Source of the DNA: Oscillatoria sp. SIO1A7
GTDB taxonomy: Bacteria > Cyanobacteriota > Cyanobacteriia > Cyanobacteriales > Laspinemataceae
NCBI GenBank assembly: GCA_010672965.1
Contig: JAAHFN010000005.1
Span: 98,171 to 162,170 of the forward strand
Direction: 5' to 3'
DNA length: 64,000 nucleotides
This document shows, piece after piece, positions 28,113-37,410 of the stretch. Within the stretch, counting starts at the first letter, position 1, and each line of letters opens with the position of its first letter. The notes beneath the pieces are model-generated. The model was given only the letters and a program-made list of their open reading frames with translations. It was not told the origin of the DNA and searched no databases. Both the position numbers and the translations under genes were made by a program.

Positions 28113-29087
28113 ATGAATATAGATATGGTCTTGAACGAACTATCGTTTAGAACTCCAGCAAGCGATGTTGAAACAGCGAGAAAGCGAATGTTAGACTTAA
28201 TGCAAGTAGCACGAGCGGCTATAGACAATAGGGTCAAAAAAAATCTGCGTTTGAATGATGATGAATTTTATGGCACGTTATTAGCAAATGGTTATACAGT
28301 GTCTGATTGGTTATTCAACGATCCAAGAGTAAAAAATGAAGCCAAGGAAGAATGGCAGCTTTTTCTTGGCTTGCTTGATAAAGGTTCGTGTGAAAAGCCA
28401 ATGTCTGATTTTTTCTACAATGGAGAACGAGCAGAGGGTCTCGGCATTGCTTATCTGAGCGAATCGCTGGCCCTAAGTATGAGAACAGATCCGCCCGATC
28501 CGCTTTGGGAACCGAGCATTATTGAGTTGCAACATGAATGGATTGAAGAAGATGGAGAAGATGAAGAAGATAAAATAACCATAAATTATGAAACTGTAGA
28601 GGTGCGTCATGCTAGCAAGGTCGAGCATATCCAAGAACATAGATCTTGGATTGAGGAGAGGATCAAAAACTCGGTTCGTGACGGATTGGAACTTTGGGAG
28701 CGCAGGAATACTTTGTTTCCCAATTTGGAATTTTGCGAAGACGCTCGTCAGCAAATCGAGAAACTGAAACGTGGAGACAAAATGCTGCGACCTGTTAAGA
28801 CCAGGTTGTTGCAGCTAGAAAAGTATTGCAAAAATTGGAAAACAGGAGCTTTTGAAACCGATAAAATTGTTTCTAAGGTTACCCTAGAGTCGCAAGCTAC
28901 TCTTCAACAGTATGGAGAAAAGAGAAAAATTCGGTGTCCTGATGGTGAGATAGAGCTTTTTAGCTGGCATGTCCGCTTGACTCCAGGAGATTGGCGTATT
29001 TATTTTTTGCCGGACGAAAAACGGTATAAAATTATTATCGGCTATATTGGCCGCCACCTTCGTACTCGGACCGATAAAGGCAATTGA
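28113..29087 (+). CDS. unknown third protein of the DUF262-DUF3696 operon, RelE-like C-terminus
   Basis: 324 residues, no named domain recognised. An Asp/Glu-rich patch (IEEDGEDEEDKITINYETVE, ~148-167) splits two helical halves. The last ~50 residues (SWHVRLTPGDWRIYF, then EKRYKIIIGYIGRHL) look like the terminal strands of a RelE/ParE-type fold (RLTxGWRIYFxxD...IxIGYIGxHLxT). ATG directly follows the TAG of the ATPase gene (0-bp gap). It is therefore the natural candidate effector or specificity subunit of this operon; that is inference. Downstream an inverted repeat and T8 could end transcription. Confidence 0.75.
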   Translation: MNIDMVLNELSFRTPASDVETARKRMLDLMQVARAAIDNRVKKNLRLNDDEFYGTLLANGYTVSDWLFNDPRVKNEAKEEWQLFLGLLDKGSCEKPMSDFFYNGERAEGLGIAYLSESLALSMRTDPPDPLWEPSIIELQHEWIEEDGEDEEDKITINYETVEVRHASKVEHIQEHRSWIEERIKNSVRDGLELWERRNTLFPNLEFCEDARQQIEKLKRGDKMLRPVKTRLLQLEKYCKNWKTGAFETDKIVSKVTLESQATLQQYGEKRKIRCPDGEIELFSWHVRLTPGDWRIYFLPDEKRYKIIIGYIGRHLRTRTDKGN

Positions 29088-29129
29088 TGGCGCAACCGAG
29101 GCAACCGGGGCGATCGCCCCGCGATCGCC

Positions 29130-29250
29130 CACAGAAAAAATTTGGAATCTCCCGTAGGACGGGCGTCCCGCCTGTCCCAAAGAGCCCAAACGGACAGGCG
29201 GGACGCCCGTCCTACGCAGAATTTGACTTTTTTTTGGGCATTCAAACCGA
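29130..29250. repeat. GTAGGACGGGCG palindromic element (inverted copy)
   Basis: 25-bp perfect arms at 29153-29177 and 29192-29216 around a 14-nt loop, followed on the plus strand by TTTGACTTTTTTTTGGG. Related to elements at 41089-41204 and 42454-42602. It lies between convergent operons and can act as a terminator for the DUF262 operon; its right edge contains the stop codon of the HicB-like gene. Confidence 0.8.
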
Positions 29251-29490
29251 CATGATGTAAGACGCCTTAACAAAATCAGAAGCAACTTGAAGGGTTAAAG
29301 GTTGTGGTAAATCCTTGCCTCTTGCTTGATAATCTTTAATTAAAAGCTGTAAAACCTCTCGACCATTTTGTAAGGCTTCCTCATAAGTTGCTCCATGAGT
29401 ACGAGCATAAGGGTCAAATTCAGGTAAGCTAAGAATATATTTTTGGTCTTCGTCCGACCATTGAATGACTACACTGTAGTGAAGTTTCAT
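29242..29490 (-). CDS. HicB-like antitoxin-family protein
   Basis: 82 residues with the HicB partial RNase-H fold pattern: HYSVVIQWSDEDQKYILSLP, then YARTHGATYEEALQNGREVL and a short C-terminus; no separate DNA-binding tail of note. HicB proteins usually neutralise a HicA ribonuclease, but no HicA-like gene lies beside it. ATG immediately follows the TAA of the upstream short ORF, so the two are translationally coupled. Likely an orphan HicB, common in cyanobacteria. Confidence 0.75.
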   Translation of the reverse strand: MKLHYSVVIQWSDEDQKYILSLPEFDPYARTHGATYEEALQNGREVLQLLIKDYQARGKDLPQPLTLQVASDFVKASYIMSV

Positions 29491-29676
29491 TTACTCTTCC
29501 TCCTTGTCGGTTAATTTGTCTAGATATATCAGTGCATTTTTAACGTCTTTTTCTTGATAGCGCTCGGCATCCGATCCATCGTTTCCTGAAAGGGTCAAGC
29601 TATATTCTAATAACGGGTGACTCCATATATAGCGGTTCTCAAATTGATGTGAGGTGTCTGGGGCGAAGCATCCCAA
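29491..29676 (-). pseudogene. 5'-truncated small gene coupled to hicB
   Basis: Open frame of 61 codons. The last ~45 (LLEYSLTLSGNDGSDAERYQ, then EKDVKNALIYLDKLTDKEEE) look protein-like, acidic and helical; the first ~16 codons are translated from the terminal part of the MITE at 29628-29778. No ATG or GTG exists in the frame; only TTG codons, one of them inside the MITE. The simplest reading is that the element replaced the original 5' end. Family not recognised. Confidence 0.5.
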
Positions 29677-29778
29677 TATGAGAATCCCCGTTATACAGCA
29701 GAGATAGTCTTGGGGATGCTGTCGCCCCTACGTTTCTAGGGTCCGATCGTTTATTACACTTATTTGAGAAACGCTATA
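29628..29778. mobile_element. MITE-like element, inverted copy
   Basis: 151 bp from TATAGCGGTTCTC to GAGAAACGCTATA (one TIR mismatch); carries the same internal GGGGCGAAGCATCCCA and GGGATGCTGTCGCCCCTAC blocks as 8219-8359 but reverse-oriented. Confidence 0.8.
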
Positions 29779-29980
29779 GTATGACTTCCCTTTCCCGAAC
29801 GACAAGCAAAACCTGCTTTTTTTAGGATGGATTTTAGTTCTCTAATCTTCTTCGGCATCCGTTTAGTTGAACTCTTCCACCTACATTAAATACTAATCCC
29901 AATTTAACACAAGCCTAGAAAAACCGGGTTAAGCGCTGACAAAATTTGATGGCTCGCTCCTGGAGTTCGGGGCGAGTTAG

Positions 29981-30231
29981 CACTCCCTGAGAGGGGCTGA
30001 AGAGAAAGGCGAGCAAGCGACGATTCCAGAAAATCAGCGCCGCTTGGTGACAACCCACGATGCCCTCGGATACTACGCTAATGCCTATGGCGTGCCCATC
30101 GAGGGGACCTCTATCGGAGTTCCAGGGATGGATTGGGCAGCCCAGCAGGGACCTACCTAGGCATGATGGAGTACAATACTTGCGCGATCGCCACCGGTCT
30201 CGGCGGTCAATGTACGCCATTTAATCCTTAA
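29981..30231 (+). pseudogene. remnant of a ZnuA/TroA-type metal-binding lipoprotein gene
   Basis: Two plus-strand pieces resemble the C-terminal half of ABC transporter metal-binding proteins. 30011-30160 reads IPENQRRLVTTHDALGYYAN and continues AYGVPIEGTSIGVPGMD before a stop; 30154-30231, in another frame, reads YLGMMEYNTCAIATGLGGQC and TPFNP before TAA, matching the normal C-terminus. The expected intervening ~60 residues are deleted and nothing of the N-terminal half was found. Clearly non-functional. The remaining bases 29785-30410 are otherwise empty apart from the bufA leader. Confidence 0.75.
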
Positions 30232-30410
30232 GCAGCATCAGACGATCTTCAAAAACCCGGTCTAAACACGGACCAAGAAACCACTACAAAAAGCTTACTT
30301 ATTTTTAACTGCGTTCTCAGGTTAGTCTCAGATTTGGTCAATAATATGACTGGTGTCGGTTCCAAAAGACTCATGGCCGACAGTTCAAACTAATTGGAGT
30401 AGAGAGACTG

Positions 30411-30686
30411 ATGAAAAACGTAACGACAAAGGCAATAGTAGCTACTGCATTAACGGGTGTCTTGGCTGCTGGCATTGGTGCTGTAGTCAATAATAGGGAA
30501 GCCCTGGCCGGACAAGAAGGTATGGAAAAATGTGCTGGTATCGTTAAAAAGGGTATGAATGATTGTGGTGCCAACGGTCACGACTGTGCCGGTAAGGCTG
30601 AAATAGATGGCGATGCGAATGAGTGGATTTACGTTCCTGAAGGCACTTGCAACAAGATTGTAGATGGAAGAGTAGTGACAGACTAG
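30411..30686 (+). CDS. bufA: bufferin-like precursor peptide (BufA, DUF2282)
   Basis: 91 residues. Signal peptide: KNVTTK, hydrophobic [19 protein letters not shown], cleavage likely after ALA near residue 33. The mature part has exactly four cysteines, Cys41 (GMEKCAGI), Cys52 (MNDCGAN), Cys59 (GHDCAGK) and Cys80 (PEGTCNK), with the [10 protein letters not shown] ending that defines DUF2282. In characterised bufferins the two central cysteines are converted to thiooxazole groups by the DUF692 enzyme BufB with BufC, and the product binds copper. The downstream genes encode exactly those proteins. GGAG-like purines precede ATG. Identification is strong; the metal bound here is inferred. Confidence 0.9.
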
Positions 30687-30702
30687 AATCACAGGCATAT
30701 AT

Positions 30703-30787
30703 AAGACTTACGCAGATTTATAGATATAAAGCTATATATAGCGATTTGCAATTTAGCAACCTAGCTATAGCTTCTATGCGTAAGTCC
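30703..30787. repeat. GACTTACGCA element between bufA and bufB
   Basis: Ends AAGACTTACGCA and TATGCGTAAGTC are inverted repeats of ~10 bp; the interior differs from other copies (TATAGATATAAAGCTATATA). It may form a long hairpin that lowers transcription into bufBC relative to bufA. The rest of the 284-bp gap has no gene. Confidence 0.6.
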
Positions 30788-30970
30788 CGCTCTGGAGAAA
30801 AGCTTCCTATGTGGCTTGATTTACAATAATGGTTTGAGAAGAAGAAAGAGAATATAGAGGAAGTGTTAGCGATATTACCAACATTTCCTCTATTTGTCAG
30901 TTAAATTTATTTCATAAGTCGGCAATGCCAAATTTACGTTGCCAAATTTACGTTGATTTGCAGGAAAGAC

Positions 30971-31849
30971 ATGAAAACAGAATTGCAGCTAAGACCTCCA
31001 AAGGTAGAACTTGATGTCTGCCCTAAGCAAGTGCCAACTTTAACTAAAGGTGCTGGCATTGGGCTGCGATCGCTCCACTATCAATATATTCTAAATCACA
31101 AACCAAAAGTCAATTGGTTTGAGGTTATATCAGATAACTATTTTGGGGATGGTGGCTTACCACTGTATCATTTAGAAAAAATTAGGCAAGACTATCTGAT
31201 TAACTTACATGGGGTAGGAATGTCTCTGGGTTCCAGCGACCCATTAAACAAAGATTATTTAATTCGCTTAAAAAAACTAGCAGCAAGAATAGAACCAGAT
31301 TGGGTTTCCGAGCATCTATCTTGGATATCGGTTGGCGGGCATTATCTTAACGACTTGATTCCGCTTCTCTATACAGAAGAAGTAATGGAACGAGTGGCAT
31401 CGCGTATTTTGCAAGTACAGGATTTTTTAGGCAGGCAGATTTTACTTGAGAATCCCTCTCCCTATCTAACTTTTACAGACTCGACTATGACTGAATGGGA
31501 GTTTGTCGAGAGATTGGTCAAAAAAGCCGACTGCTATTTGCTGCTAGATATCAATAATGTTTATGTCAATGCTATAAATAATGGCTTTGACCCGCTTACT
31601 TATCTAGATGCTATCCCAGGCAGCAGGGTCAAGGAAATTCACTTAGCCGGTTATGAGGAGCGGGAAAAATATCTCTTGGATACTCACGGCTATCCCGTTC
31701 ATCCGCCAGTTTGGGAATTGTATCAAGAAGCATTAGCAAGGTTTGGAGCTATACCTACTTTGATAGAATGGGATACCGATATTCCCAGTTTTGAAGTTTT
31801 GATGGCCGAAGCAAATAAGGCCGAAGGGTTTTTAGAAAAGGTGCAGTAA
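30971..31849 (+). CDS. bufB: multinuclear non-heme iron oxidase BufB (DUF692)
   Basis: 292 residues from the ATG with AGGAAAG upstream. TIM-barrel DUF692/MNIO enzyme: GAGIGLRSLHYQYIL, VNWFEVISDNYFG, LHGVGMSLGS, the His/Glu-containing WVSEHLSWIS, LENPSPYL, LLLDINNVYVNA, EIHLAGYEE, DTHGYPVHPPVW and LIEWDTDIPSF. The conserved His, Glu and Asp residues of these segments hold two or three iron ions. Family members (MbnB, TglH, BufB) oxidise precursor-peptide cysteines; here the substrate should be the BufA peptide 280 bp upstream. Shares one base with bufC (TAATG). Confidence 0.93.
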   Translation: MKTELQLRPPKVELDVCPKQVPTLTKGAGIGLRSLHYQYILNHKPKVNWFEVISDNYFGDGGLPLYHLEKIRQDYLINLHGVGMSLGSSDPLNKDYLIRLKKLAARIEPDWVSEHLSWISVGGHYLNDLIPLLYTEEVMERVASRILQVQDFLGRQILLENPSPYLTFTDSTMTEWEFVERLVKKADCYLLLDINNVYVNAINNGFDPLTYLDAIPGSRVKEIHLAGYEEREKYLLDTHGYPVHPPVWELYQEALARFGAIPTLIEWDTDIPSFEVLMAEANKAEGFLEKVQ

Positions 31850-32661
31850 TGGAAGTAACAGTTCTACAAAATTTATTTTATCGGGCTGTCTGTGAAAGAG
31901 ACCCTGCTAGCATTGAAGAACTAAGTAAGCATATCAAACCAGCTCGCGACCTAACGCCAGCAGAAGGCTTAGGGGTCTATCGAGGTAATGTAGTTGGCAA
32001 TCTGACTAGCGCTTTAATGTCAACCTACCCGGTTTGCTGTCAGCTAGTGGGAGAAAAGTTTTTTGAGGCAACTGCGGCAAAATTTATCAGCAAGTTTCCT
32101 TGCTCGTCCCCAGACTTAGGAGACTATGGGGAACAATTGCCAGATTTTCTAGCTGACTTTGAACCGGCAGCAGATTTACCCTACCTGCCAGATGTCGCTC
32201 GGTTAGAGTGGTTCTGGCATCGAGTTTTTACTGGTGAAGATACAACGGGCTTGGATTTGCAGGGATTGGCAGAGGTTCCCGAGGAAAAATGGGGAGATTT
32301 GACTTTTTACTTACCTAAAAATAGCGTGATGCTAGAGTCTCCTTATCCCATCCATAGGATTTGGGAGGTTAACCAAGCAGATTATCAAGGCGATCGCAGG
32401 GTTAGTTTAGATGAAGGTGCCGTAAAAATATTTCTCTGGCGCAAAGGTTACGATATGCGAATCGATTTGCCCAGCAAGCCAGAATGGGAATTGTTGGAGG
32501 CTTTTGAAAAGAACGATCGATTTGAAGCTATCTGCGAGGGATTGGCTGGCACAGTTGATGTGAGTTCTTGGTTGCCAGTATTCGTACAGCGGGGTTGGAT
32601 TGCTGACTTTTCTGTGGGTTATAGCGCAAGTAAAAAGTCAAAAGTAAAAAGTCAAAGGTAG
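31849..32661 (+). CDS. bufC: BufC, precursor-binding partner (DUF2063)
   Basis: 270 residues. N-terminal DUF2063 domain (ECxx...RGNVVGNLTSALMSTYPVC, LVGEKFFEATAAKFISKFPC, YGEQLPDFLADF, YLPDVARLEWFWHRVF), then a C-terminal ~120-residue domain (VMLESPYPIHRIWEVNQ, FLWRKGYDMRIDLPSKPEWE) resembling the BufC/TglI-type recognition fold. BufC escorts the precursor to the DUF692 oxidase. ATG overlaps the bufB stop. The last ~10 residues (KKSKVKSQR) come from an AAAAGTC short repeat, so the C-terminus may have been extended recently. Confidence 0.9.
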   Translation: MEVTVLQNLFYRAVCERDPASIEELSKHIKPARDLTPAEGLGVYRGNVVGNLTSALMSTYPVCCQLVGEKFFEATAAKFISKFPCSSPDLGDYGEQLPDFLADFEPAADLPYLPDVARLEWFWHRVFTGEDTTGLDLQGLAEVPEEKWGDLTFYLPKNSVMLESPYPIHRIWEVNQADYQGDRRVSLDEGAVKIFLWRKGYDMRIDLPSKPEWELLEAFEKNDRFEAICEGLAGTVDVSSWLPVFVQRGWIADFSVGYSASKKSKVKSQR

Positions 32662-32689
32662 TCTCTGACTAAGGAACGAGCATTTATAA

Positions 32690-33010
32690 ATGTCTTAATC
32701 GCCCCTACAGATTCTCTCTCACTCGTAGTACGGGCGACCGCTCTTCTGGGATTTCTGGGATGGGCGAATGCCATTCGCCCCTACAGATTCTCTCTCCCTC
32801 GTAGGGGCGATTCTCGAATCGCCCCTACGGGACTGTCTGCCTTAAAATTGTAGAGAGCGGTTGAGGCACGTTGGCGTAGGCGGAGCCTGCCCAAGGAGGG
32901 CTAACGCCAACTCGTGCGAGTAACCCAACACAACGGTTGGTATAGTTGGGTTGAACGGAGTGAAACCCAACCTACAGTTACACACAATTTTAGATTTGCC
33001 AATCCACTAC
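32690..33010. repeat. repeat-filled intergenic region
   Basis: Three near-copies of AATCGCCCCTACAGATTCTC with internal palindromes (about 32695-32830), then a half-copy of the palindromic element of 4588-4696 (TTGGGTTGAACGGAGTGAAACCC and the CACAATTTTAGATTTGCCAA tail, about 32935-33008). No gene. Confidence 0.75.
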
Positions 33011-33016
33011 GTTGTT

Positions 33017-33705
33017 CTAGTCTTCTTTTTCCAAGCGTTTGGCAACAAAGAAGAGAGTCGCGCCGACGATTAGGGTTTCTCCGAGCAACTCGGCGAATTC
33101 TTCTAAAGCAACCCTGGATTTTTCTATAAATAGGGCAAGGAAGGGGCGCTGGGGAAAAAACTGCCAAAGGGTAGGCTGCAAAATTTGATGTTTGAAAATC
33201 TCGGCTCCAAAACCTCCCAGGACAAATATCGCCATTCCCAGTAGGGCGATCGCAGTTTCTTGGCGGTACGATCGCCACAGGGCGGCAAAGTCTCGGTAAA
33301 AAACAATAGGAAGGGCGAATAAAATAGAAAGATATATTCCCATCCATTGGCTCGCCTGCAAGCCGGGGAATATTTTGTCTAACTGGAGATGAATTTTAAA
33401 GACTTCATCGATAGAGGCGTAAATTAATAAAAAAGCGATCGCTAATAAAAATCCCCGAGATGGCCGCCGCGAGGAACCATCCCAAGCTATAAACAGGATT
33501 AGGGAGATAAATCCAATCGAAAATAAGAGCAGTGCTTGCAATAAGGATGGAATCGTCATCGAGCTATCCATATCAAACAAGGGATAAGCTTTGCCTTGGA
33601 AGAAAACACTGCTCAGATAGATAATGACGATCGCGATTTCCAACAAAATTAAGCCAGGGAGCAGAATATAGCTGGCTCGTCGCAAAGCTGCGGTTTTGGA
33701 GTTCA

Positions 33706-33706
<1 letters not shown>
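33017..33706 (-). CDS. uncharacterised six-helix membrane protein
   Basis: 229 residues with about six hydrophobic segments (YILLPGLILLEIAIVIIYL; SLLQALLLFSIGFISLILF; FLLAIAFLLIYA; MGIYLSILFALPIVFY; AIALLGMAIFVLGGF; LGETLIVGATLFFVA). Conserved-looking polar residues lie within them: FDMDSSMTIPS, SIDEVFKIH, and EEFAELLGE at the last helix, which suggests a charge-lined core. No family recognised. ATG start whose first base also belongs to the repeat element at 33706-33913. Confidence 0.7.
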
Positions 33707-33913
<207 letters not shown>

Positions 33914-35827
33914 TCATGGATGAAAATAAGCGTAGATTTCGCCAGCTAAACTCGGTCCAATCCCAGGAACTTCAGCGAGCTGTTCTGGGGTAGCTATGGC
34001 GATATAATCCACGGAGCGAAAATGAGCTAGAAGTTGTTTTTGGCGTTCGTGCCCCAGGCCGGGAATATCGTCCAGACGCGATCGCCGCATCCGCTGAGTT
34101 CGCTTTTGGCGATGAAAGCTAACCGCAAATCTATGGGCTTCATCCCGGCAACGCCGCAACAATTGCACCCCGGGTTGTTCTGCATCCGATGGCACTGGCA
34201 AAGATTCTCCAGGCAGAAAAATTTCCTCTCGCTGCTTGGCCAAACTGACCGTTCGCAAGTTTTCCATTAAATTCATCTCCTGTAGCACTTCTACCACAGC
34301 AGAGAGCTGACCTTTGCCTCCGTCTATAACGACTAAATCCGGCCAATCTTGTGGCCGAGAAGGTTTTGCCGATTCTGGCTTTGCCGATTCTGGCTCCAAA
34401 TTTTCTCCATCTTCGGGATTCGCCGCATATTCCCGAAAGCGGCGGCCGATAACTTCCGCGAGGCTAGCGAAGTCGTCGGAATGACCGGCATAAACTTCGG
34501 GATTCTTAATTTTATAGTGACGGTAATGCTGCTTGGCGGGCAAGCCGTCAATAAAGACAACCCGAGAGGCAACGGCATCAGACCCTTGGATGTGCGAGAT
34601 ATCGTAGCATTCGATGCGGTGAGGAAGTTCGGGAAGGTCGAGAAGTTCGGCTAAATCTTGCATCGCTTTTGCATTGCGATCGCTCGCCCTTTGCATTCTG
34701 GCCAATTCATACTCGGCATTGCGCTCCACCATTGCAATTAATTCTGCTTTGCTTTGCCGCTGGGGCGCAACAATTGTCACCTTGCGTCCCTTGTGAGAAC
34801 TCAGCCAATCCGCTAATATTTCTGCCTCTGGCAACTCCTGCTGCACTATAATCTCCGCCGGAATTTCCACCGGCTCCACATTTTGATAATGCTCTTCCAA
34901 AACTCGCTGCAATATTTCTCCAGTATCTGCGGCTTCCGCCACAAATCCCAGCCGTCCTACTAACTGACCCGCCCGCATTTGGAATAGCTGGATGCAAGCA
35001 TATTGCTCGGAACTAGCCAGGGCTATTGCATCCCGAGATATTGTGTCGTCGGGCAAAGATACTTTTTGCTCGGAGCCAGCCAGGGCTTTCAAGCCAGCAA
35101 TGCGATCGCGAATCCGCGCCGCTTGCTCGAAATTCAGCACTTCTGCGGCTTTTTCCATTTGCTTGGTTAGCATTGCGATCGGTTCGGCAATCCTACCTTG
35201 AAATACCATCGCCACTTTTTCTACAGTTTGCCGGTACTCTTCTGGGGTAATTAACCCCTGACAAACCCCGGGACAGCGACCGATATCGTAGTTCAGACAG
35301 GGGCGGTCTTTATATAAGGGTTGAGGTCGCTGTCTCAAAGGAAAGATTCGCTTTAGCTGTTGCAAAGTATTGCGCAACTGACCGGAATCCACATAAGGTC
35401 CATAGTAGCGATCTTTAGAATGCCTTAACTGTCGCTTGCGAGTTATGAAAATGCGCGGATATTTTTCCGACCAAGTTATGCAGAGAAAGGGATATTTCTT
35501 ATCGTCTTTAAGCAAGACATTAAAGTTGGGTTGATGCTCCTTAATTAGATTAGCTTCCAGAGCTAAGGCTTCTGCTTCTGTATCCGTAACGATAAACTCA
35601 ATTTCGCAGACCTGGCTGACCATTAGGGCTATGCGCGGGCTCAGAGCTTGTCCCTTTTGGAAATAGGAGCGGACTCGCGATCGCAGCTTTTTAGATTTGC
35701 CAATATAGATCCGATTGTCAGAACCGTCTCGCATTATATAGACTCCCGGCTCCGGAGGAATTTCCTTAAGCCGGTTTTCCAAGCGTTCCCGATCTTTCGC
35801 TAGCGGCTGAGTTTTTGTCAAGGGCAT
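33914..35827 (-). CDS. uvrC: UvrABC system protein C
   Basis: Nucleotide-excision repair endonuclease making both incisions around the lesion. 637 residues. GIY-YIG nuclease ([20 protein letters not shown], ~27-46), C-x-cluster region ([17 protein letters not shown]), UVR domain binding UvrB (~205-240), the RNase H-like 3' half ([15 protein letters not shown] and [14 protein letters not shown]) and two helix-hairpin-helix motifs at the end ([26 protein letters not shown]). All key motifs are intact. A small tandem duplication ([10 protein letters not shown], about 34360-34390) sits in the linker of the 3' domain. ATG at 35827 preferred over the GTG one codon earlier. Confidence 0.96.
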
Positions 35828-36191: not shown

Positions 36192-36364
36192 TAAGCAATT
36201 CCAGTTCATGGCCTGCGGTTAGGAAAAGGAGATTTAATTGGGCAATTTCGATCGGCCGCTTAGTTTTCTCAGGAAAAACTCAGGGAAAATTTAAGAAAAA
36301 TTTGCGAAAAATAGGTGGCAAGGGCGGATCTAAATAAAATATATGGGCTACTTCTTGGGAAATG

Positions 36365-36425
36365 TGGGGGTCCCACACTTACACGCCTCCCACAGTTCCC
36401 ACACCTCCCACAGTTCCTTGTCCCT
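36365..36425. repeat. STRR (CCCACA / TCCCACAGT)
   Basis: Direct repeats of CTCCCACAGTTCCCACAC. An upstream in-frame extension of the next gene runs through this tract, which argues against a start there. Confidence 0.7.
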
Positions 36426-36534
36426 CTTCCCTATCCGGGGCAGGGAACTGGAGTGGCCGATTTTCGTATCTTTAACAAATAAGAATACAGTACCAGAGTC
36501 CCAAGCTGAATCTTTTCTAAAAAATAAGGTGTTT

Positions 36535-37410
36535 ATGGTGAAAAAATATATGCGATTCTCCTGCAAGGGCTCTATGCGCCAAGGGCAGGCTGCACCAAAG
36601 CGATCGCTAGCAGTCGTTGCTAGCGCTATTTCTTCAGCGATCGCTTTCTCTTCAGGGGCGATCGCTTTCTCTGGCAATGCTCCAGGGTTGCTGGCAGAGT
36701 CTTTGTCTTCTGAAAGGTTGCAAGGGAGACCAACAGAACTGGCGCTCAATGCCCCCGATGCTAGGGCGATCGCCTCTCGGGGATACGGCCTGGACTTCCC
36801 TGCAGACATCGGGGCACCCCAGCGTACAATCGGTGCTGGCACTAGAGGCGGCCCTGAATCTTGCCTGCCAGGGGAGAAAGCACTGCCGCTATCTTTGATG
36901 CCCACAACTAACGCCGATTCGGGGACGACGGTTTCGAGCAATCCTGCTTTCTTCTTCTACATTCCCAAAACCACCGCCAAAACAGGAGAATTTCTGCTGG
37001 TGGACGATGCCTGGGATGAGGTCTATATAACAGAGTTTCAACTGCCCCGCGCTCCAGGGGTGATTAAGGTGAGTCTGCCGAAAACAGTCGAGCTGGAAGT
37101 GGGCAGGGAATATAAGTGGCAATTTATGATTGTTTGCAATCAAGAAGACCGCAGCGCCGATCGCTTTGTCCTGGGCAGGCTCGAACGGGAGCAACTCAGC
37201 CCTGAGATGGAGGCAACTTTAGAGCAAGAAGCAAATCCGATTGAGCGAGCTAAGCTGTATGCTAGAGCAAAAATATGGTATGAGGCTCTGACTCAGGTGG
37301 CTTCCGCACGCAGGCAGTACCCTGGGGCATGGGAAGAACTGCTGCGATCGGCAGGACTCGGGGCGATCGCCACCGAACCCATTGCGGACTGTTGCACCCC
37401 AGAAAATTAA
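36535..37410 (+). CDS. DUF928 domain protein, first of three tandem copies
   Basis: 291 residues, predicted secreted: basic start, then AVVASAISSAIAFSSGAIAF, cut near LLAES. The C-terminal ~190 residues are DUF928: IGAPQRTIGAGTRGG, a lone Cys, SNPAFFFYIPKT, VIKVSLPKTVELEVGREYKW, MIVCNQEDRSADRFVLGRLE. Function of DUF928 is unknown; members are often encoded near CHASE2/caspase-type genes in cyanobacteria. ATG at 36535 chosen because the longer frame is repeat-derived. The signal-peptide region has two GCGATCGCTTTCTC copies (HIP1-driven duplication). Confidence 0.85.
   Translation: MVKKYMRFSCKGSMRQGQAAPKRSLAVVASAISSAIAFSSGAIAFSGNAPGLLAESLSSERLQGRPTELALNAPDARAIASRGYGLDFPADIGAPQRTIGAGTRGGPESCLPGEKALPLSLMPTTNADSGTTVSSNPAFFFYIPKTTAKTGEFLLVDDAWDEVYITEFQLPRAPGVIKVSLPKTVELEVGREYKWQFMIVCNQEDRSADRFVLGRLEREQLSPEMEATLEQEANPIERAKLYARAKIWYEALTQVASARRQYPGAWEELLRSAGLGAIATEPIADCCTPEN

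Follow-up and report, generated by a model that had tools for sequence, protein, structure and literature searches.

Three consecutive genes of the cyanobacterium Oscillatoria sp. SIO1A7 raise the question of whether this organism carries a genuine bufferin operon and, if so, what the peptide is for. The genes lie in a 64,000-nucleotide stretch of DNA, which as a whole is called the window here, and the sequence-only reading had taken them for a complete bufferin-like copper-peptide operon. They are as follows:

30411..30686, plus strand: bufA, 91-aa Buf1 bufferin precursor (DUF2282 match, cysteine spacing)
30971..31849, plus strand: bufB, MNIO-family bufferin maturase of 292 aa (NF050167 MNIO_BufB match)
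31849..32661, plus strand: bufC, DUF2063-RRE partner protein (PME type 1) of 270 aa (DUF2063 match, predicted fold)

The reading frames are as had been claimed: bufA encodes 91 aa with cysteines at exactly positions 41, 52, 59, and 80 and contains the 10-residue stretch quoted from it, and bufB and bufC overlap by one base, the TAA of bufB occupying 31847-31849 and the ATG of bufC starting at 31849. The length of BufB is counted from the first ATG (30971); a TTG at 30953 would give 298 aa. The order bufA-bufB-bufC on one strand is that of Buf1 bufferin clusters, and the term operon is used here because of this gene order and shared strand, the bufA-bufB spacer being 284 bases long. In the profile searches that had been proposed as a check, all three proteins matched the expected models, BufA that of DUF2282 (76.9 bits, cut-off 22.4), BufB the DUF692-type MNIO model (Pfam MbnB_TglH_ChrH, 361.4 bits, cut-off 25), and BufC that of DUF2063 (79.1 bits, cut-off 27.2); genome-wide, there was one DUF2282 match and one MNIO match. 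Within an NCBIfam listing that holds no TglH model, BufB was of the BufB type, scoring 377.6 bits against NF050167 MNIO_BufB (cut-off 310) versus 54.7 against the MbnB model (cut-off 325), and it was also below the cut-offs for HvfB (246.1/360), ApyH (97.6/400), and ChrH (46.2/600). BufA and BufC have no curated NCBIfam match because BufA falls below the cut-off of BufA2 (22.5 bits, cut-off 60) and BufC below that of HvfC (48.2, cut-off 142); BufA has four cysteines, versus six or twelve in Buf2. Assignments to Buf2, HvfB, MbnB, and ChrH were ruled out by these model scores, and the Pfam and NCBIfam scores uphold the family assignment to Buf1 bufferin, BufB, and BufC. Neither of the sequence-based outcomes named beforehand as refuting this assignment, a BufA outside DUF2282 or a BufB of MbnB type, came about.

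The word complete was right for the ABC core only. Section 14 of PMC12452194 counts a doxX gene in the core of bufferin clusters. DoxX is frequent in Buf1 clusters but not obligatory; a search of the genome found no match to PF07681, against matches in 7 of 14 control genomes, and the cluster is therefore smaller than the four-gene type. The three genes themselves are, judging from their sequences, intact and under purifying selection: dN/dS (Nei-Gojobori, against four cyanobacterial relatives) was 0.20-0.28 for bufA, 0.11-0.16 for bufB, and 0.11-0.13 for bufC, with synonymous sites near saturation in the more distant pairs. By gene content and model scores, what this cyanobacterium carries is a canonical Buf1 bufferin operon that lacks DoxX.

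Such an operon is a known system, ordinary as a gene family, and rare and little described in cyanobacteria. It shares with the Buf1 bufferins of Caulobacter vibrioides and other Pseudomonadota the precursor family, the four cysteines, the BufB and BufC families, and the ABC order, and differs from them in the lack of PF07681, in the long bufA-bufB spacer, and in the host phylum. The string "cyanobacteri" is absent from the main text of PMC12452194, whose taxonomic figures or supplements may include cyanobacteria, "bufferin" occurs 0 times in the available part of a 2025 review of cyanobacterial copper handling (PMC12292863), and our literature search found no paper with both "DUF2282" and "cyanobacter". 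The class name captophorins, bufferins included, has been proposed (PMC13097082). Cyanobacteria are mentioned for ChrH-type clusters and other metallophores (PMC12636315; PMC12538549). ChrH-type clusters, which have CPACGMG precursors, likewise place an MNIO beside a secreted cysteine precursor and occur in the same cyanobacterial order, but have a distant MNIO, another precursor motif, and a separate small downstream protein. Two genomes of the window's order contain such an arrangement (L087, 901-2432; L088, 1199-2695), with a distant MNIO, a secreted-looking precursor ending in CPACGMG, and a small overlapping downstream ORF; this cluster type is already known, because PMC12636315 describes ChrH-type clusters in cyanobacteria.

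The BufA precursor follows the pattern C-x10-C-x6-C-x20-C. Its 10-6-20 spacing is found in all oxyphotobacterial precursors listed and in many from Pseudomonadota, others of which have eight residues between cysteines 2 and 3; outside the oxyphotobacteria the spacing is 10-6-20 or 10-8-20, apart from five precursors of a shorter type. Our alignment of 26 precursors comprised 14 from oxyphotobacteria and 12 chosen from the 26 non-cyanobacterial BufA rows; most of these 12 come from Pseudomonadota and two from Nitrospirota, and the divergent L022, L025, L027, L039, and L046, with their shorter cysteine spacing, are among the rows left out. In this chosen set E39, C41, G43, N50, D51, C52, C59, G61, G78, and C80 are invariant. 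Residues 1-33, read by eye, have the pattern of a Sec signal peptide (basic start, hydrophobic core, ALA-G), the core of the peptide closely resembles the one in a precursor from Acinetobacter (L037), and the 14-residue charged stretch singled out by the sequence-only reading follows the family consensus. The precursor had also been called shorter and more charged than many proteobacterial ones. Its length is not unusual against the 12 chosen comparators (91 aa versus a median of 90.5, range 83-117), oxyphotobacterial precursors having a median of 94 aa (n = 14); the claim of higher charge is weakly borne out, the charged fraction of the cysteine core being 0.25 versus a median of 0.16 (range 0.12-0.21) in the same comparators, and the oxyphotobacterial median 0.23 (n = 14).

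A sequence search of solved structures gave no match for BufA or BufC, and the structure model of BufA, which is of low confidence in the first 31 residues, was set aside. The AlphaFold model of BufC (mean pLDDT 90) had three fold matches at E up to 0.001, namely 8hi7_A and 8hci_A (TglI, TglHI complex; TM-scores on the query 0.60 and 0.58) and 3dee (NGO1945; 0.49). The predicted fold of BufC thereby matches that of the MNIO partners TglI and NGO1945, both named as this type of partner protein in section 18 of PMC12452194. In an alignment of 81 BufB rows, with the window included and L086-L088 left out, the window departs at no residue column that is at least 93% conserved, and the fully conserved columns include E51, H80, H115, E160, D193, N195, N196, H224, D237, H239, and E266, a pattern consistent with what is seen when BufB is aligned to 3bww, a relative of solved structure. 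N175, D242, and H244 of HvfB are reported to be essential (PMC13419390), and the LDxNN and DTH motifs of BufB look like the counterparts of these residues.

A BufB search of genome contigs, from which the best 80 of 177 related stretches were kept, yielded fifteen oxyphotobacterial loci (L003-L015, L035, and L064), and matches to BufA, BufB, and BufC lie in order on one strand in 15/15 of them. Four have broken frames or split matches (BufB in L008, BufC in L009 and L010, and both in L035); in L035, a Trichodesmium MAG, bufA is intact and bufB and bufC are spread over several frames, through either decay or assembly error. The operons of Symploca, Okeania, Hormoscilla, Acaryochloris, and Pseudanabaenaceae are the same bufABC operon and belong to one BufB clade, with BufB 64-86% identical, while their flanking ORFs, compared by eye in 13 cyanobacterial loci, differ between genera and are common only to close relatives. 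A variant arrangement was also seen, with tandem bufA genes before one bufB in L085 (2470-3537, minus strand), where one bufA has two DUF2282-like units; the genome in question (G404) has five DUF2282 matches.

The phylogeny that had been suggested, made here with BufB, groups the window with 16 other oxyphotobacterial sequences: in an 84-row tree, from which we excluded two copies of the window itself (L001 and L002), two fragments (L035 and L070), and the frame-broken L008, these 17 rows lie on one side of a branch with an SH-aLRT of 99. Symploca (L003 and L004) stands closest to the window, and the oxyphotobacterial branch sits in a 37-row set otherwise composed of Pseudomonadota, Nitrospirota, and unlabelled rows. 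The trees were made by a quick method with a midpoint root, and were repeated with 79 rows by also leaving out L086, L087, L088, L057, and L062 (long or distant). Ten rows stand apart in the tree, labelled Melainabacteria, Obscuribacterales, Vampirovibrionales, Caenarcanales, or "Cyanobacteria bacterium PR.3.49", and no BufA match was found in their loci. Vertical inheritance together with these Melainabacteria-type Cyanobacteriota was rejected in that a single 27-row clade was disfavored (p-AU 0.026), a weak rejection because this grouping was defined once the first tree had already been inspected. DUF2282 was present in 2/386 genomes sampled across the phylum and in 27/388 sampled in the order (12/149 genera), and within the order sample no other genome of the window's family carries it, at least 13 non-carriers of that family being present (341 genomes unlisted). 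Okeania hirsuta probably belongs to this same order. The operon is patchily distributed, having moved or often been lost.

No sigma-70-like promoter was found on the plus strand before bufA, and the -10-like TTAATAT of Okeania does not stand at the same spacing in the window. No RNA family reached its gathering score in 29000-34000. Two features were noted in the bufA-bufB spacer:

30854..30893, plus strand: hairpin that may be an attenuator or mark an mRNA end (inverted repeat of 14 nt, 93% complementary; local fold at -17.2 kcal/mol)
30705-30714 and 30777-30786, bufA-bufB spacer: MITE-like inverted ends GACTTACGCA and TGCGTAAGTC, read by eye and too short for our inverted-repeat listing

The hairpin was not among the terminator-like sites of our scan; by eye, like hairpins occur in the bufA-bufB spacers of Okeania and Hormoscilla. 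Among the nearest ORFs no copper gene was recognizable (four were Pfam-scanned, two without any match), and no sigma-factor or NrsF gene was recognized beside the operon (four neighboring ORFs scanned). An ORF on the minus strand (29242-29490) is weakly HicB-antitoxin-like (22.7 bits, below the cut-off of 27).

Upstream of bufA there is one further feature, which goes beyond the known picture of bufferins:

30315..30331, plus strand: direct repeat TCTCAGGTTAGTCTCAG (TCTCAG-N5-TCTCAG), 11-bp-spaced, candidate OmpR/PhoB-type response-regulator site, kept in relatives

This repeat lies 96 bp before the bufA ATG, and half-sites 11 bp apart are what regulators of the OmpR/PhoB family typically recognize. 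Among 15 bufA loci (L013, a near-copy of L012, being left out), it was exact in 8/15, at -96 to -100, had one mismatch in 2/15 (L008 and L035), and had at least four mismatches in 5/15 (L003, L004, L012, L014, and L015). A second set of 14 bufA loci, which overlaps the first (the genes of L121, L123, and L127 are those of L005, L009, and L007), gave five exact copies, five with one mismatch (L083, L122, L126, L128, and L129), and two to four mismatches in L084, L085, L120, and L124; in L083, L122, L126, and L128 the repeat is farther out, at -178 from the start taken by the script. It stands before bufA in relatives from several families, and Symploca L003 and L004, the nearest by BufB, are without the repeat that the window has in common with Okeania and Hormoscilla. 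In a gap-free profile of five representatives from four families, aligned on the repeat and so favoring it, the mean majority fraction was 0.84 within the repeat, 0.71 and 0.69 in the adjoining stretches, and 0.55 in both outer flanks. Neither the counts in the first set nor this profile is independent of the choice of the repeat, because it was first seen in an alignment.

The exact TCTCAG pattern occurred 22 times, versus 5 for a reversed control, in nine genomes chosen for having the repeat before bufA, exact or with one mismatch: seven copies are before bufA (by choice of the genomes), five before a cellulose-synthase-like gene, and ten elsewhere. Each of five Okeania genomes (L096, L098, L100, L103, and L105) has one of the five, 100-234 bp upstream of the mechanically assigned start of a cellulose-synthase-like glycosyltransferase; the one of these glycosyltransferases that was scanned scored 78.2 bits against Pfam GT2 (Glyco_tranf_2_3) and 36.8 against Cellulose_synt. 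Three other exact repeats in the Oscillatoria genome were judged to be due to chance (L089 between tig- and clpP-like ORFs; L091 and L092 near unrelated genes), the chance expectation being about one in 9 Mb; the reversed control gave none in this genome. Repeats with up to two mismatches number 6 in the window versus a shuffle mean of 4.83, a count reached in 38/100 shuffles, so they are not commoner than expected. At 36267-36283, upstream of a DUF928 gene (36343-37410), the window contains TCTCAGGAAAAACTCAG, one mismatch from the repeat.

On the Synechocystis plasmid pSYSX, TTTCAT-N5-TTTCAT stands beside metal-efflux genes, preceding a DUF305 (copM-type) gene and an RND-adaptor gene; we take it to be the site bound there by CopR. 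In the 35 kb of pSYSX that was read, the TCTCAG repeat did not occur even when two mismatches were allowed. The Oscillatoria genome has TTTCAC-N5-TTTCAT between the gene for an RppA-type regulator and a divergent ORF. Judging from these two comparisons, the bufA repeat resembles the TTTCAT type in layout and differs from it in sequence. The genome has RppA/CopR-type regulators 68% (L112) and 56% (L113) identical, the latter divergent from an ORF that resembles an RND adaptor by eye and has no Pfam match; no CopM-like DUF305 was found in this genome. Allowing up to two mismatches, we found the TCTCAG repeat neither in L112 nor in the intergenic region of the L113 regulator, so the bufA repeat was assigned to neither of them. 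We regard the repeat as a lead, a candidate regulator site. It is tempting to place the bufferin in a dedicated TCTCAG two-component regulon shared with the cellulose-synthase-like exopolysaccharide gene, and serving envelope or matrix stress and not CopRS copper efflux, and this proposal is a tentative one that is probably wrong.

Taken together, we favor, with a probability of about 0.82, a canonical Buf1 bufferin (captophorin) operon that makes a modified, exported, copper-binding peptide, and three other explanations were weighed against it. The peptide could be a true bufferin-type product directed at another metal or at oxidative or envelope stress, under a regulator that is not of the CopR/RppA type. 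The bufA repeat is unlike both the TTTCAT repeats of the pSYSX genes and this genome's own site beside the RppA-type regulator, the same TCTCAG repeat precedes the cellulose-synthase-like gene in five Okeania genomes, and the authors of PMC12452194 expect many related RiPPs to do more than handle copper and mention gold-induced bufferin operons. However, the characterized Buf1 is copper-protective (PMC12452194), the cysteine core is unchanged here, and the repeat could belong to a copper-responsive regulator that uses another half-site; we consider a role other than copper unlikely, though worth bearing in mind.

The operon might instead be decaying or silent, with the peptide not made or not modified in this strain, as could be imagined from the MITE-like inverted ends in the spacer, the several frames of bufB and bufC in the Trichodesmium MAG, the absence of the Okeania TTAATAT spacing, and the lack of a promoter-like site on the plus strand; against this, the three frames are open, none of the conserved enzyme residues has been lost, and the dN/dS values are low, which makes decay very improbable. 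Contamination or misbinning from a proteobacterium would account for a sole carrier among at least 13 non-carriers of its family in the order sample, but the operon lies inside a contig of 418,795 bases and its BufB groups with those of Symploca, Okeania, and Hormoscilla (SH-aLRT 99-100); on the contig and the BufB tree we ruled contamination out, and the chance left to it is negligible.

For the favored reading, a copper-binding Buf1 bufferin, the model is the Buf1 of Caulobacter, for which the chemistry and a copper-protective role are stated (PMC12452194, sections 14 and 21). We infer the chemistry, export, copper binding, and protection from such characterized relatives. In the cytoplasm, BufC would use its RRE domain to hand the BufA precursor over to BufB, an iron oxidase, and BufB would convert cysteines 52 and 59, the central pair, into 5-thiooxazoles. 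The modified BufA would then be exported by Sec, its outer cysteines 41 and 80 would form a disulphide, and outside the cytoplasm, perhaps in the periplasm or thylakoid lumen as the sequence-only reading proposed, the mature peptide would bind copper present in excess. In oxygenic phototrophs, plastocyanin and cytochrome oxidase require copper, too much of which is harmful to these organisms, and a thiooxazole peptide would be an additional copper buffer for this cyanobacterium.
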